Positions 10,294 through 20,609 of a DNA stretch of 64,000 nt are shown here, piece after piece (position 1 is the stretch's first letter; every line of letters begins with the position of its first letter). This DNA is from a virus. The stretch covers positions 1-64,000 of the IMG/VR virus record IMGVR_UViG_3300029268_000010. One strand, given 5' to 3'. The translations under genes were made by a program, and so were the position numbers. Below the pieces are notes generated by a model. That model was not told the DNA's origin and did no database searches. It was given only the letters and a program-made list of their open reading frames with translations.

Positions 10294-10872
10294 ATGCCTT
10301 TTGTAGAATTAATATCAGATAAAGTATCTTGGACGGAAGAAGGGTTAGCACAGAAAGAAGTGCTGGCCCTTAAGAAGTTTAAAGATAAGGATTTCTTACA
10401 GGATTTCGGAACCTATTTATATTGGGTTTACAAACCTTCCGGATTCTATGAGAATGAATTTCCTTCAACAAAAAAAGTTATGGTATGTGAACGACATATC
10501 AATAACAGGAAATGGGAAGAATTCGAAGATGTAAAAGAATGTAGAGAGATCATCAATCTTTATATAAAACTTTCTTATTCTCTTTCTGAAAGAGCATATA
10601 TGAAACTAAGATTGGATATCGAAGAATACTTCGATCATCTACATGCTATCCCCTGGGTAAAGAAATTAAAGGTTGAGGTCAATGTACCTATTGAGGACGG
10701 AACAATAACAGTTACTCAGAAGATCGTAGAGTTCAGTAATGCTGATGAAAAGTCAAAGACCATGAAACAGATGAATGATATCGTTGACTGGGAAGAAAAA
10801 CTAAAACTGAAGATCTTCAAAGAATCAAAAGGTAAAAAACACACTATCCGTTTATTTGACAGATCAGAATGA
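10294..10872 (+). CDS. Unknown protein directly upstream of terminase; small-terminase position, 192 aa
   Basis: A soluble, mostly helical protein, with an E/K-rich C-terminal third (about 145-180) that may form a coiled coil. It overlaps the large-terminase gene by four bases (ATGA at 10869-10872), the place where small terminase subunits usually sit. I see no clear N-terminal helix-turn-helix, so the terminase link is from position only. Confidence 0.45.
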   Translation: MPFVELISDKVSWTEEGLAQKEVLALKKFKDKDFLQDFGTYLYWVYKPSGFYENEFPSTKKVMVCERHINNRKWEEFEDVKECREIINLYIKLSYSLSERAYMKLRLDIEEYFDHLHAIPWVKKLKVEVNVPIEDGTITVTQKIVEFSNADEKSKTMKQMNDIVDWEEKLKLKIFKESKGKKHTIRLFDRSE

Positions 10873-13800
10873 AGTTTATAGATACATATCGTTTTTCTCC
10901 GGTCCTCACTGAAAATGATAAACCTTTTCAGGATGATTATTTTCATTTACCTCCGGAAGCAATAACAAAAGATTTTCTTGCAAAAGGATTCTATGATATT
11001 GATAATGAATGGTGGTTCAAACAACATACACGCTGCAGATACGGATTTACAGTTCCTAATGCTATTGATTTTGGAGGTGATGCTATCGTTGATGAAGTAG
11101 ATGCTTTCTGGAATGACAGTAAGATCCATGAACGTTACATAAAGGAATGGGATATTTTTGTTCCACCTAATTCAGTTAGCATTCCTCAGTATAATGTCAA
11201 TATCAAAAACCGGGAAGTATGGATCACTAACCGGCATTACTTTTATCTGAACTTTTGGAAGATATACGGTATTCCTCCTGATGCCCTTGAAAGATATAAC
11301 AAAGGACTTATCGAAGTAATAGCAAAGGAAAATGTTAATCCTAAGTTCCTCGATATGGATTTCCTTTTCTATATGCGTTTGAAGATGATGTTCGAGCAAC
11401 GCAAGGATGATAGTGAGTTAAAAGCCCGGCAGAAAGGATTTGAACAACCAAATAGTGAACCTATCCTTACCAATAAAGGTTGGAAAACAATGGAAGAGAT
11501 TAAGATAGGAGACCTTGTTGCCAATAAAAAAGGATCATATTCAAAAGTCTCTGATATATTTCCACAAGGTAATAAAGATGTATATGAAGTCGAATTACTG
11601 GATGGAAGAAAAACAAGATGTGGGATTAATCATTTATGGAAGGTTTATGATAAAGGTTTAAAGAAAAAGAGAGAAGTTGTATTAAGTACACAACAATTAT
11701 TAAATTATGGACTTACAGGAAAAGTTAATAAGAGGAAAAATGTATCATACCGTTTTGCCCTTCCAGAAATAGAACCCGTAGAATTTCAAAATCAAAACTT
11801 ACCTATAGATCCCTATCTTCTTGGATTATTACTTGGTGATGGAACTATTAATAGGGCATTGAAAATTTCATCAAAAGATCAAGAAATACTTAATTCAATA
11901 CAATCTATCCTAGGGTTAGATTATGAACTTAATTTTGATAAGGATTCAAATTGTAATTACCGTATTAAATTTTGGAACGTTCATGACAAGGAACAACATA
12001 AAAAATATAATAAAAATTGTTCTATTAAACTTAATCCACTGAAAGAAGAATTAAAAAAACTTAATCTTTTAAAGTGTTGTCATGATAAATTTATTCCTGA
12101 AATATATAAACATTCATCTATTAATCAACGATTGGAACTTATACGTGGTTTAATGGATACGGATGGTCATATATCACCTGATGGATGTATGGAATTTAAA
12201 AATTGTTCAAAACAACTTTCTTATGATTTAGTTTATATTCTGAGAAGTTTAGGAATTCAATGCAAAATAAAAGAGTTTCCAAGCCCTAAAGGATATTCTA
12301 ATTTCTTTAGGGTTTATATACGGACAACAAAATATAACCTATTCAAACTTACTAGGAAAACAAAATTATTTAAACCTGACAAGAATATTTATAAACGATG
12401 TCCGATTAAATCAATAACAAAATTGCCTTATCAGGAAATGTCTTCTTGTATTCTTTTAGATGATGAGGATCATATTTATCTTACTAAAGATTTTATTCCT
12501 ACACACAATTCCGAGAAACTCTCAGGAGGTATTGCAGCTTATAATTATCTTTTCATGCCAGCGTCACTTACCATTATCGCCGGTGGTATGTCTGATGATG
12601 CCGATAAAACATATCTTGCTTCTAAACGTGGACTTGAAAATCTTCGAAATACTCAGTTTTATAAAGAATACGAAAACTCTAATCTTGAATTTACCCATGC
12701 AGCAAATACAGGAGCTGAGATAAGAGCAATATCTTGTCGTGACAATACCCAGGCGCTTAACCGTTTTTCTCCTTTCTTCACTATCATTGAAGAAGGTGGT
12801 AAGTGGAAAAAGGATTCATTATTAGAAACACAGGAATTTGCTGAGTCTGCAACAAAAGCCGAAGGTATTAAGACCGGTTATAAGATTTATATCTACACTG
12901 GTGGAAGTATGGACATGGGCGCCGCCGATGCTGAAACAATTCATTACAATCCCGATCAGTTTAACTGTCTTAAGTTCAGGAATAATTTTGAGGAAGAAGG
13001 TGCTTGTAATGGTTATACAGGTCACTTCACCCCTTCATGGATGTATCGTATCATTGATAAAGACGGAAACTCTTTAAGAAGAGAATCACTTATTGATATC
13101 TATGCTGAGGAATCAAGAAAAAAAGCTGATAAGAAAATAACCTTCTGGACACAGAATCCTATTCATGCCTCTCAGGCATTTATGATACCTACAGGTGGTT
13201 TCTTTGGAGAGAGGATAATCAATATGCTTAATATCCGAAAAGCATTTATCAGAACGCATACCGAAGATCAGATTGAAGAAAGAGGAAGGTTAGAGTGGAA
13301 TAATCCAAAACTTCCATTTCAAGGTGTTCATTTTGTTACTGATCCCAAAGGTCATGTTATCCTCATAGAAGAACCACAAAAGGACAAACATGGAATAGTA
13401 TTAAAAAATCTATATAAACTCGGTACCGACTCCTATGATAAGGATGAAGCATTAACATCTACTTCAATGGGTAGCGTGAGCGTGTTTAAAGGATTCTATG
13501 ATGCCAACAGTACATACAAGAAGTATTGCATGAGGATCACCGAACGACCTGGGATATCCGAAGGAGGGAAAGATATATTCTATGAAGATACTGCCAAAGC
13601 GTGCATATACTATGGTGGTATAAACCTTATAGAGTGGTCAAATATTTTAATTTTTGAATGGTATGAGAAGAATGGTTTTGCTTCTTTATTAAAAGAAAGA
13701 CCAGACCTTGCCATGGCATCATCAGTAAAGAAATCAAAAGTATTCAATAAATGGGGTGTGGACCCTAATACCAAAATACATTGGCTCACAAAACTCAGAA

Positions 13801-14045
13801 AGCATTTGGAAGAACCACAAAGTATAGAAGAACTATACGATATGGAACAGATAACTGCTTTTGCCAAATTCAGATACAATCCTGGCAAGAAATACAACTG
13901 CGATATAACTATCGCCTCAGCACTCTGTATCGTTTGCTATGAAGATGAAATGATGTATGAAGTACAGACCTCTGATAAGGCAAATGATTTTGATGAAAAA
14001 CCAATAAGATATATAGAAAGAAACGGACAAATCGTAATGGTATAA
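10869..14045 (+). CDS. Terminase large subunit (ATPase-nuclease) interrupted by an intein, 1058 aa
   Basis: The DNA-packaging motor. Residues 192-547 are an intein; removing it joins K-A-R-Q-K-G-F (185-191) to S548-E-K-L-S-G-G, which restores the deviant Walker A (R-Q-x-G-F-S) of this terminase family. Walker B is F-F-T-I-I-E-E (636-642), and the coupling motif I-Y-T-G-G-S lies at 675-680. The nuclease domain starts at L-G-T-D854-S-Y-D, and a late acidic residue lies in N-C-D-I-T-I-A near 1018. The spliced product would be 702 residues, normal for large terminases. It is followed three bases later by the portal gene. Confidence 0.92.
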   Translation: MKFIDTYRFSPVLTENDKPFQDDYFHLPPEAITKDFLAKGFYDIDNEWWFKQHTRCRYGFTVPNAIDFGGDAIVDEVDAFWNDSKIHERYIKEWDIFVPPNSVSIPQYNVNIKNREVWITNRHYFYLNFWKIYGIPPDALERYNKGLIEVIAKENVNPKFLDMDFLFYMRLKMMFEQRKDDSELKARQKGFEQPNSEPILTNKGWKTMEEIKIGDLVANKKGSYSKVSDIFPQGNKDVYEVELLDGRKTRCGINHLWKVYDKGLKKKREVVLSTQQLLNYGLTGKVNKRKNVSYRFALPEIEPVEFQNQNLPIDPYLLGLLLGDGTINRALKISSKDQEILNSIQSILGLDYELNFDKDSNCNYRIKFWNVHDKEQHKKYNKNCSIKLNPLKEELKKLNLLKCCHDKFIPEIYKHSSINQRLELIRGLMDTDGHISPDGCMEFKNCSKQLSYDLVYILRSLGIQCKIKEFPSPKGYSNFFRVYIRTTKYNLFKLTRKTKLFKPDKNIYKRCPIKSITKLPYQEMSSCILLDDEDHIYLTKDFIPTHNSEKLSGGIAAYNYLFMPASLTIIAGGMSDDADKTYLASKRGLENLRNTQFYKEYENSNLEFTHAANTGAEIRAISCRDNTQALNRFSPFFTIIEEGGKWKKDSLLETQEFAESATKAEGIKTGYKIYIYTGGSMDMGAADAETIHYNPDQFNCLKFRNNFEEEGACNGYTGHFTPSWMYRIIDKDGNSLRRESLIDIYAEESRKKADKKITFWTQNPIHASQAFMIPTGGFFGERIINMLNIRKAFIRTHTEDQIEERGRLEWNNPKLPFQGVHFVTDPKGHVILIEEPQKDKHGIVLKNLYKLGTDSYDKDEALTSTSMGSVSVFKGFYDANSTYKKYCMRITERPGISEGGKDIFYEDTAKACIYYGGINLIEWSNILIFEWYEKNGFASLLKERPDLAMASSVKKSKVFNKWGVDPNTKIHWLTKLRKHLEEPQSIEELYDMEQITAFAKFRYNPGKKYNCDITIASALCIVCYEDEMMYEVQTSDKANDFDEKPIRYIERNGQIVMV
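11442..12509 (+). mobile_element. Intein with LAGLIDADG homing endonuclease; class 3 (W-C-T) signature
   Basis: A 356-residue protein intron in the terminase ATPase site. Start region: S-E-P-I-L-T-N-K-G-W-K then I-K-I-G-D-L-V. Block B-like N-H255-L-W257. The two LAGLIDADG motifs are L-L-G-L-L-L-G-D-G (near 317-325) and L-I-R-G-L-M-D-T-D-G (424-433). The end is S-C527-I-L-L-D, then I-P-T545-H546-N547, with S548 as +1 residue. Position 1 is E192, not Cys or Ser. Class 3 inteins lack a nucleophile at position 1 and use the block F Cys, marked by W (two after the block B His), C in block F and T before the H-N end; all three are present. The boundary at E192 is inferred from the restored Walker A. 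Confidence 0.85.
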
Positions 14046-16674: not shown

Positions 16675-18465
16675 ATGAAAAAGGGATTTTTTGTAAAGAA
16701 AAAAGGTAATGGTGGTTCAATAGAGCCAAAGCCACAAGAATTAATAGTTCCAATGCCTAATGCACTTGATAATATATGGAAGAGTGAAATGATTGAAAAT
16801 GCAAAACAACCTATTCAGATACCTCCAATAAATACCACACAGAATGTAGTTACTCCTGCAGAAATAAAAGATGAAAATGGTATTATAGATTATACTGGAC
16901 AATCTTTTGCAGATGCATTCTCAAAAGCAAGGGATCTTTCAGGAAATAGTACAGGTACTTTTAAATGGAATGGAAATACTTATGGTACTGAATATGCCAC
17001 TGAAGCAAAAAACGCTGGCAGACAGTATTGGATAGATCCAGATACGGGAGAAAATATTGTTGAATCTAAGTCTTCAATTCCTATTACTACTTCGAAAACA
17101 TATCCATGGATTCCTAAATCTTTTGAAAATAAATCAAGATTTTCAAATACTCTTCCTGGTGATGATATGCAATTAGAAGATACAAGTGATTGGGATCGGA
17201 TAGTAACAGAGAACAAAAAGATTAAAACTGAAGTAGATACTATTCCTATTCCTAAAAAAGATTCAATAATATCTCCTGATACTTTTAAGACAGAAAAGAA
17301 AACACCTCCTACTATCATAAAAGATGATACAGGAGAGTTTAAAATGGAAATAGCAGATAGTCTTGGTAATCCTCCTAAGATTGAAATTACTCCGGAAGTA
17401 ATAGATACTGTAAATAATTTCATCGATTCAAAAGGAGAAGATTATAAATATACACAAGAAGATCTTGATGAATTAAGTACACTTATAAATATTCCCAAAG
17501 CGTATTTAGCGTATTATGCAGCTACCAGAGGATCAAGTTTAATAGCAAGAGATATTCCTAAATTAATTAGAAATGCATTTGTTTCAAAATTAGGAACAAA
17601 ACCATTACCAACTCCAGAAATGCAATTTCCATCTAAGGTTTCTAAAGGAGAGACAAAATTATTAAAAGGAAATGCATGGAAAGTTTTTCGTAGAGGTATT
17701 CTTGAAAGTAATGATCCGGTTAAACCGATATCAAAATATAATATTAATTTGAATAAATATTTTCCTGGTTATAATACATATAATATCGGAAAAAAAACAA
17801 TTAATGCTAGTGTAAAGACTGCATTTAAAGCCGGTGATGTTATTGAGGCAGGCACACAAGCAGTACAAAAAGGAAGTACGAAAACCATTCAATCTATTTC
17901 TGAATTTACATCTAGCATCCTTAAAAATGCTTCAAAGATTAAAGCATCAAATATAATAGGTGTAGAAAGTAAGGTTGGAAAATATGTTTCACCTACATTA
18001 AAAGGAGGATGGAAAGTTCTTGGAGAAGTAGCAAGTAAGATCGCATGGCCACTAACTGCTGTTGAGATATTAACTATGGAAGGTAATAATCTTTCATGGG
18101 CAAAACAACAACCTTCTAAAATTCTTGCAGCTGGACGAGATGCAGAACGAGAAGGAAAATCTTATACTCAGGGAATGATTGAGTATTACAAACAAGTTAA
18201 ACCAGGACTATTACAAAGGGGAGAAACTGATATCATTAATCAGATAGAATCCAATATAGCATCTCATTTTTCTCAATATTCACAAGTGAAAAGAACTAAT
18301 CTTGGAGTACCGAAAGAGAAAAGTTCAATATCTAATACTGGTAAATTAATTTCGTGGGCAGATACATATGTACCAGAAACAAAGAAAGTGAATACCATAA
18401 AATCTTCGACAAAAACTAATGATAATAATTTAAATTATCAATGGAAAAATCAGGTAGTACAATAG
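16675..18465 (+). CDS. Hypothetical virion-associated protein, 596 aa
   Basis: Not recognised. A low-complexity, Lys/Ser/Thr/Pro-rich N-terminal half (about 1-250) is followed by a more hydrophobic helical half with small amphipathic or membrane-active stretches (about 275-300 and 440-460). Codon use is AT-rich, unlike the capsid gene downstream. It starts two bases after the portal stop and overlaps the next gene by 25 bases. It may be an internal virion protein; no enzymatic motif is visible. Confidence 0.5.
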   Translation: MKKGFFVKKKGNGGSIEPKPQELIVPMPNALDNIWKSEMIENAKQPIQIPPINTTQNVVTPAEIKDENGIIDYTGQSFADAFSKARDLSGNSTGTFKWNGNTYGTEYATEAKNAGRQYWIDPDTGENIVESKSSIPITTSKTYPWIPKSFENKSRFSNTLPGDDMQLEDTSDWDRIVTENKKIKTEVDTIPIPKKDSIISPDTFKTEKKTPPTIIKDDTGEFKMEIADSLGNPPKIEITPEVIDTVNNFIDSKGEDYKYTQEDLDELSTLINIPKAYLAYYAATRGSSLIARDIPKLIRNAFVSKLGTKPLPTPEMQFPSKVSKGETKLLKGNAWKVFRRGILESNDPVKPISKYNINLNKYFPGYNTYNIGKKTINASVKTAFKAGDVIEAGTQAVQKGSTKTIQSISEFTSSILKNASKIKASNIIGVESKVGKYVSPTLKGGWKVLGEVASKIAWPLTAVEILTMEGNNLSWAKQQPSKILAAGRDAEREGKSYTQGMIEYYKQVKPGLLQRGETDIINQIESNIASHFSQYSQVKRTNLGVPKEKSSISNTGKLISWADTYVPETKKVNTIKSSTKTNDNNLNYQWKNQVVQ

Positions 18466-19373
18466 AAAATCAAAATTCAGAATCTTCTTTTTCTTTAAAA
18501 CCAGAATACTTCAAAACATTTTTAAATAAATACATTGGTATTAATACAAATGATGATATTGAAAATCCTAGTTCATTACATGTTAAACGAACTAATTTAA
18601 GTGAAGGAATGAAAGAAGAATTCAGTTCAGTAAATTATATTGTTCCTGATAAATTTTCATATAATGCCAACGATCAATTAAGTGGATTTTCAAATCAATT
18701 CAGTCTTGAAAATGGAATGAATTATACTTATCTTCCTAACCAAAATAAAATAGATAATTTCACTGTATCAGGAAAATATGTTGTTGCACATCATTTACTA
18801 GATACAGATCTCGATAAAGCAACTCTTTCTAAAGATACTTTTAAAAATAGTCCAGACACAAATTATTATCCTATAATTAAAAAAGATGGTAATAATGTCT
18901 GGTTAACATATAAACAACTGAAGGATGTTACCAATGAAGATGAAATAGCATCGGAATTACGTCAATATAAGTTGAGTGATATTGATTTTGATTCCAAAAC
19001 ACAAGAACCGGGATATAGACCAGGACATTATGTTTTATCTACAAAAACAGGAATAGATACACAATTACACTTCGTAGATAAAGATTCTTATGGCAGACAT
19101 TCTGGTAATAATGTTGTGTTTATATTTACAGATAAAAAAGGAAATAAATATGCGAGAGATTTTTCGGGAACCATAAATGAAATAAAATCCGAAGGAGAAA
19201 AAATTGTTAAACGATATGATATCAAAAAAGATGATATTATTTTAGGTTATATGGATGCTGGAAGTTATAGTGTTGCCGAGTATTTTGATAATATAGAAAC
19301 ATATAAAAATCAAATTAAAGTAAGAAATTTACCTGGTCAGGTAGGTGCTGGATTGGCTATACCTACAAAATAA
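18441..19373 (+). CDS. Hypothetical protein, 310 aa
   Basis: Not recognised. The first 60 residues are polar and low in complexity. The C-terminal part (about 180-290) is an alternating beta-type domain with G-H-Y-V-L-S-T, then G-R-H-S-G-N-N-V-V-F-I-F, then D-A-G-S-Y-S. Two His and one Asp in these blocks could be catalytic, but I cannot match them to a known enzyme. It begins inside the previous gene in the -1 frame, which suggests translational coupling. A promoter for the capsid unit overlaps its end. Confidence 0.5.
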   Translation: MEKSGSTIENQNSESSFSLKPEYFKTFLNKYIGINTNDDIENPSSLHVKRTNLSEGMKEEFSSVNYIVPDKFSYNANDQLSGFSNQFSLENGMNYTYLPNQNKIDNFTVSGKYVVAHHLLDTDLDKATLSKDTFKNSPDTNYYPIIKKDGNNVWLTYKQLKDVTNEDEIASELRQYKLSDIDFDSKTQEPGYRPGHYVLSTKTGIDTQLHFVDKDSYGRHSGNNVVFIFTDKKGNKYARDFSGTINEIKSEGEKIVKRYDIKKDDIILGYMDAGSYSVAEYFDNIETYKNQIKVRNLPGQVGAGLAIPTK

Positions 19374-19406
19374 TTTGCTATTACATAATTAAAATCCATA
19401 TATTTG
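19374..19406 (+). promoter_or_regulatory. Bacteroidota-type promoter TTTG-N21-TATATTTG for the capsid unit
   Basis: TTTG (19374-19377) and TATATTTG (19399-19406) are separated by 21 bases, the same two boxes and spacing as at 3092-3124. It begins right after the stop of the previous gene and ends 21 bases before the ATG of the scaffold candidate. It probably gives the capsid genes extra transcript. Confidence 0.8.
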
Positions 19407-19427
19407 TCTCATTAAAAACCTAAAACA

Positions 19428-20609
19428 ATGTTTAGAAAAGAGAACTCAGAAAACAGATTATGGCATACCATTCTTCCCATAGGGATGATGGATGCTCCAG
19501 CAGATCAAGGTGCCGGAGGCGGTAAATCCACTCCAGTAGCTCAGCAGATTGAAAAAACCATAGAAGATCAGTTAGCGGTCAATTACGAAATCCCACCTCC
19601 ACCGCCTGAGAAAACTGACTCACCACTCCCTCCAGAAAAAAAAGACACACCACCTCCACCAAAAAATGATGCCCTTCCACCTCCGGTAAAAACCGATGCA
19701 CCCCCTCCGGCAAAAGTAGATACTCCTACTGGTTACAAACCAAGTAAATATTGGGAAAAGGTAAAAACCGGTTTTGAAGAAGCTAATGGTACTGATTCAT
19801 TTAAGTTACCTGATGGTATCACTGAAGAAAATGAACATGAAAAACTATTTGAATTTTTACAAGAAAATTATATTGGAAATCCAGAATTATTCATATCTCA
19901 ATTAGATCCCCGAGTTCAAAATATAGTTCGTTCTTCTTTAGAAGAGAACTTTGACTATGATACTCATGTTGCTCAGGCTAATAACCAGAATGCAATTTTT
20001 AATTTACCATCCGATCAGTTTATGAAAGTATTTCTTAAACAACAAAACGGAAAATCTGAAAAGAATCCCGATGGATGGACTGATGAAGATATCAATGTTC
20101 ATGTTGAAAAGATGGATAAGATTGAGAGGGATAAGCAAGTTTTGACTTTAAAAAATCAGATGAAAGTTGCGAAGCAACAAGAATTATCTGAAAAAAATAA
20201 AGTTAAAGAATCTGAGAACGAAAAGAATTTCCAGAAAATTTTATCAAAACAAGAAACAGATATTTCTACACTGATTGAAAGAAACAAGAGCAAGAAGACA
20301 TTTATGGGTATTGAATTCAGCGATGCTGAGAAAGAGCAATTCCTTAAAGATCTCCCTTCTCTTATTAAAATCAATCCAAAGACAAAAACTTTTCCATTGT
20401 ATGATATGTTGCGAAGCGACGACACATTGATGGAAATGGCTGCTGTGGTGTGGAAAGGAGAAAAAGGAGTTAGAGATCACATTGATGAGATTCGTGAAAA
20501 CGGAATTCAGAACGTATGGTCCAAACTAAGGTTAAATTCTATAAATGAAAGTGGGAGTATTATTGACAAACATCAACCAAATATTCCCGGCGATGAAGCT
20601 TTTGTATAG
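19428..20609 (+). CDS. Scaffold candidate, 393 aa
   Basis: Probable internal scaffolding protein for capsid assembly, judged by position directly before the major capsid protein and by composition. Residues about 50-105 are a Pro-rich linker (repeats of P-P-P-x-K-x-D). The middle and C-terminal parts are charged helices, with a Lys/Glu coiled coil (about 220-285). Acidic and helical scaffolds of this size are usual. There is no protease motif. It has its own promoter. Alternative: a minor head protein. Confidence 0.55.
   Translation: MFRKENSENRLWHTILPIGMMDAPADQGAGGGKSTPVAQQIEKTIEDQLAVNYEIPPPPPEKTDSPLPPEKKDTPPPPKNDALPPPVKTDAPPPAKVDTPTGYKPSKYWEKVKTGFEEANGTDSFKLPDGITEENEHEKLFEFLQENYIGNPELFISQLDPRVQNIVRSSLEENFDYDTHVAQANNQNAIFNLPSDQFMKVFLKQQNGKSEKNPDGWTDEDINVHVEKMDKIERDKQVLTLKNQMKVAKQQELSEKNKVKESENEKNFQKILSKQETDISTLIERNKSKKTFMGIEFSDAEKEQFLKDLPSLIKINPKTKTFPLYDMLRSDDTLMEMAAVVWKGEKGVRDHIDEIRENGIQNVWSKLRLNSINESGSIIDKHQPNIPGDEAFV

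Follow-up and report, generated by a model that had tools for sequence, protein, structure and literature searches.

Class 1 inteins carry a nucleophile at position 1. Class 3 inteins lack a nucleophile at this position and are recognised by a Trp at B:12, a Cys at F:4, a Thr at G:5 and a Ser or Thr at +1 (PMC7891396, PMC5222942, PMC3196547). The Cys at F:4 alone is also found in some class 1 inteins (PMC3196547). One compilation of class 3 inteins has 1701 members (PMC7891396). Class 3 inteins in the large terminase subunit (TerL) of mycobacteriophages and TerL inteins in the P-loop have been described (PMC5050341), and inteins in the TerL of crAss-like phages are also published (PMC7886860).

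The window, the whole stretch of 64,000 nucleotides analysed here, encodes an intein that resembles these systems in part. The class 3 inteins in mycobacteriophage TerL, DnaB and Gp206 (MP-Be DnaB and MP-Catera Gp206; PMC5050341, PMC3196547) are about 30% identical to it. Common features are the W-C-T triad, the absence of Cys1, a LAGLIDADG endonuclease and, for TerL, the insertion in the ATPase domain. The classic mycobacteriophage site TerL1-a falls within the P-loop, where it separates the Lys position from the Thr after it, and the intein of the window enters at the equivalent point. The TerL types are unrelated, however, with a junction G-F^S in the window (^ marks a splice junction) instead of G-K^T, and Glu1 instead of the usual Ala. 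In Crassvirales, the Delta-group and other crAss-like phages also have TerL inteins (PMC7886860), and those of cr111_1 and DAC15 are W-C-T inteins at the P-loop. They start with Ala, unlike the intein of the window, and share only 31-36% identity with it; the window phage itself has only distant relatives among named Crassvirales. Among structurally characterised inteins, Mycobacterium chimaera DnaB1 (PDB 6RIX, 6RIY; PMC7664689) has the same Hint fold, Cys-His-Thr active site and block B Trp, but this mini-intein lacks an endonuclease and sits in a bacterial helicase, whereas the intein of the window has an endonuclease and resides in TerL. PI-SceI (PDB 1EF0, 1VDE) is the best fold match and also carries a LAGLIDADG endonuclease within its Hint splicing domain. 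It differs as a class 1 intein of the yeast V-ATPase with an extra DNA-binding region and 16-18% identity. With this locus, class 3 gains a member with well-defined limits that lies outside the sets from mycobacteriophages, helicases and named Crassvirales.

The TerL gene is located at 10869..14045 on the plus strand and comprises 1058 amino acids in one open frame including the intein. The extein parts match PHROG 6681 'terminase large subunit', and the next gene, directly downstream, codes for a portal protein (PHROG 6547). The nearest named relatives of both proteins are from Crassvirales, with about 21-27% identity (TerL about 26%). On these similarities, the source phage is related to crAss-like phages but divergent from them. 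The IMG/VR virus record of 90,515 bases holds one copy of the intein. IMG/VR searches with the single TerL or intein of the window found 0 and 1 loci, and alignments were used as queries instead. The window also contains an unusually long single open frame of 6685 amino acids (42903-62960, plus strand). For this frame, Pfam yielded only a weak AAA_30 match at residues 1437-1558 (9.4e-5, below the gathering score).

The N-extein covers residues 1-191 (10869..11441, plus strand) and the C-extein residues 548-1058 (12510..14042, plus strand), opening with the +1 Ser. Insert-free TerLs were retrieved with an alignment of the C-extein. These proteins are 36-38% identical and read K(S/A)RQKG(F/Y)SE at the insertion point, which fixes the junctions at F191^E192 and N547^S548. 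The empty sites of L176 (KSRQKGFSEFGAC), L179 (KARQKGFSEFIAC) and L185 (KARQKGYSEKVAG) align with ARQKGF and SEKLSGG on the two sides of the insert; on the window gene, the corresponding flanks are AAAGGATTT and TCCGAGAAA. Across the insert, the window reads KARQKGF^EQPNSEP...FIPTHN^SEKLSGG. The class 3 intein spans 356 codons at 11442..12509 on the plus strand (E1-N356, that is, E192-N547 of the open frame). An earlier note had placed it at 11442-12509 from the sequence, with an excision restoring R-Q-K-G-F-S, and the intein-free relatives confirm these boundaries independently. E192, H255, W257, C527, T545, H546, N547 and S548 were all read from the open frame at the positions the note had given.

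In intein numbering, the key residues are E1, H64, W66, C336, T354, H355, N356 and the +1 Ser. Position 1 is a Glu (11442..11444, plus strand), which aligns with the Ala1 of most class 3 inteins and does not offer the Cys, Ser or Thr that initiates splicing in class 1. In block B, His B:10 (H64/H255) is followed two residues later by Trp B:12 (W66/W257) within H64-L-W66 (11631..11639, plus strand). The block F Cys (F:4 or C2:4, C336/C527; 12447..12449, plus strand) is the predicted initiating nucleophile and is invariant in the alignments. Block G ends with Thr G:5, His G:6 and Asn G:7 (T354-H355-N356 or T545-H546-N547; 12501..12509, plus strand). The +1 residue Ser548 (12510..12512, plus strand) is the predicted second branch point and, at the same time, the P-loop Ser that is invariant in intein-free TerLs. 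The signature goes beyond coincidence: across 11 aligned phage inteins, H64, C336 and N356 never vary, and W66 and T354 hardly do. Alignment with known class 3 inteins from phages, IMG/VR and GTDB placed the W, C and T inside blocks B, F and G, at B:12, F:4 and G:5, and the triad recognised before holds. Related inteins from IMG/VR, GTDB and phage records formed 84 clusters at 70% identity, a biased census recruited by similarity to endonuclease-bearing class 3 inteins; 82 of them have W-C-T, the remaining two FCS and WCS. F-C-S replaces the triad in L003 from Lactobacillus phage LfeInf, where the intein ends with SHN and the gene is annotated as an endonuclease.

Class 1 inteins of related TerLs (the second inteins of L203 and L019, and that of L255) have Cys1 and an Asn at F:4. 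In a tree of the splicing columns with the diagnostic columns removed, the intein of the window grouped with W-C-T inteins and the three class 1 inteins were placed across a 97% branch; this tree has few columns, is poorly resolved and includes only these three class 1 controls. The TerLs L203 and L019 each have two inteins: the P-loop one is of class 3, and the other, of class 1, lies near the C-terminus in L203 (NFDR^CIAEG) and before the TGG C-motif in L019. L255 has only a class 1 intein, also before TGG. Some W-C-T inteins (L029-L033, L048 and L055) start with a Cys (SAGK^CQPLYAK), so that both the class 1 and the class 3 nucleophile are present. Their sister L088 has Ala1.

The AlphaFold2 model of the intein, with ten extein residues per side and 60 relatives as input, has a mean pLDDT of 91.5 and a confident splicing domain and LAGLIDADG endonuclease. 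In a Foldseek comparison with the PDB, PI-SceI was on top (E 3.9e-19), and matches included gp41-1 C1A/F65W/D107C, an engineered WCT form (6RIZ, E 1.7e-6), and the class 3 MchDnaB1 (6RIY, E 6.4e-5). A search of the PDB with a short C-terminal query gave no match. The endonuclease has two motifs with a catalytic Asp: LLGLLLGDG with D133 (residues 126-134; 11817..11843, plus strand) and LIRGLMDTDG with D241 (residues 233-242; 12138..12167, plus strand). A Pfam match to LAGLIDADG_3 (E=2.9e-11) and the fold similarity to PI-SceI and I-DmoI agree with the type suggested by the earlier note.

The insert has a GC content of 28.1% compared to 36-37% in the exteins, and a GC3 of 16% compared to 31-33%. 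The lower GC is consistent with an acquisition. Composition is weak support, since equally GC-poor DNA occurs at two further places in the window. A region as GC-poor as the intein is located at 18143-19500 around an ORF at 18441-19373. Its GC minimum for a stretch of 1068 bases is 26.7%, starting at 18377.

The insertion interrupts a conserved loop. Its first part, KARQKGF (11421..11441, plus strand), continues with the Ser at 12510-12512. The motif K-x-R-x-K-G-(F/Y)-S, a Glu-Glu and a G-T-x-G are all invariant or nearly so in 13 intein-free TerLs. The Glu-Glu pair (12789..12794, plus strand), invariant in the alignments and part of TIIEEGG, is a putative Walker B, and G-T-x-G a putative C-motif. 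The TerL profile found no sequence-level relative in the PDB, and folds were compared instead. The model of the intein-free L176, which is 38% identical, has a strand (136-141), the K-x-R-x-K-G-(F/Y)-S loop and a helix (147-161). It matches T4 gp17 (3CPE, E 8e-14) and other TerLs; together with PHROG 6681 this assigns the protein to TerL with a P-loop ATPase. By this strand-loop-helix order and the T4 gp17 match, the modelled insertion loop is a deviant P-loop with Phe at the canonical position of the Walker A Lys. The insertion in a Walker A loop proposed earlier stands for the P-loop, given the T4-gp17-like fold, but the Walker A sequence is not the canonical one. The gene carries a mobile element in the very loop with which the packaging motor binds ATP. 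The interruption should disable ATP binding until splicing, and packaging presumably waits for it.

These observations point to a class 3 intein with a LAGLIDADG endonuclease that homed into the Phe^Ser codon pair of the TerL P-loop and restores the loop by splicing (probability roughly 0.93). The proposed steps follow the established class 3 pathway (PMC5222942, PMC4031507). Homing would have taken place in a phage related, at a distance, to crAss-like phages. The precursor is predicted to fold after translation and to splice. With the block B His and T545 activating it, C527 at F:4 would attack the F191-E192 bond and form the block F thioester. The N-extein would then be transferred to Ser548. 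Cyclisation of N547 would allow the exteins to join as ARQKGF-SEKLSGG, bringing back the ATP-binding loop and restoring ARQKGFSEKLSGG. We infer both the start at C527 and the dependence of packaging on splicing. The endonuclease may cut intein-free TerL alleles at the site, and repair would copy the intein in.

Other readings concern the junction, the chemistry and the integrity of the intein. The junction was originally chosen so that a plausible TerL motif reappeared, with no empty-site sequences as a guide, and the intein might start with F191 or Q193, turning Glu1 into an artefact. The empty-site TerLs keep the Phe or Tyr of RQKG(F/Y)SE in the extein, and a misplaced junction was rejected. 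Glu also aligns with the Ala1 of inteins initiated by A-Q-P, and the F^EQP junction recurs in L015, whose intein occupies the same site and is 52% identical, and in L022. The chance of a misassigned position 1 is close to nil. A class 2 route, with Ser+1 attacking the N-junction directly and C527 being incidental, would agree with the lack of a nucleophile at position 1. In the known class 2 inteins, however, which are orthologues of KlbA, F:4 is an Asp and the +1 residue a Cys (PMC4031507). The Cys at F:4, the Trp at B:12, the Thr at G:5 and the W-C-T inteins as nearest relatives led to rejection of the class 2 route, which is very improbable.

A decayed class 3 intein with cleavage only or without splicing would leave the phage record with a non-functional TerL. 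Decay is known from a class 3-like Arthrobacter intein, which is a pseudogene (PMC3196547), and splicing is a prediction here. Yet no damage is seen in any catalytic residue, in the two LAGLIDADG motifs or in the reading frames of the exteins, and the sister inteins at the same site are intact as well. TerL is normally essential. Decay is improbable, though less so than the class 2 route, and a splicing class 3 intein is preferred.

Glu1 had been regarded as an uncommon variant. Position 1 of the 84 clusters is Ala in 61, Glu in 12, Pro in 5 and Asp in 2, with Gln, Cys, Ser and Gly in one each. Glu is a minority state, as stated, but its rarity was overstated: it is the second most common residue. 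With positions 1 and +1 left out of the tree building, Glu1 requires at least 7 state changes. Seven inteins, that of the window included, form a 95% clade; each of them occupies the homologous TerL site, and five have Glu1. L203 has a further Glu1 at this site. By these comparisons, Glu1 is a recurrent minority state among related inteins and nothing unique. Of the 12 Glu1 clusters, 8 have Ser+1; of the 61 Ala1 clusters, 56 have Thr+1. The raw Fisher test for Glu1 and Ser+1 (p 3.5e-5) takes no account of relatedness and is not counted as evidence; the paired tree test was not significant, with only four usable pairs. The pairings raise the thought that position 1 of class 3 inteins is more than an inert placeholder and that its residue is adapted to both insertion site and +1 nucleophile, which we consider unlikely. 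If so, Glu1 could act in the N-junction step or fit the intein to the G-F^S loop of the terminase. Sister inteins at the homologous terminase site vary between Glu, Ala, Pro and Gln at position 1. These variants are a set for testing the role of a non-nucleophilic first residue in class 3 splicing. Pro1 inteins have a Gly at -1 (G^P) in four of five clusters (L059, L073, L143 and L162), and K^A is found at P-loop sites. Glu1 class 3 inteins are also present in L117 and L123, on contigs labelled Candidatus Shapirobacteria and Falkowbacteria. Their junction sequences (AYGK^EQPYSEP) are identical in these two assemblies of different lineages.
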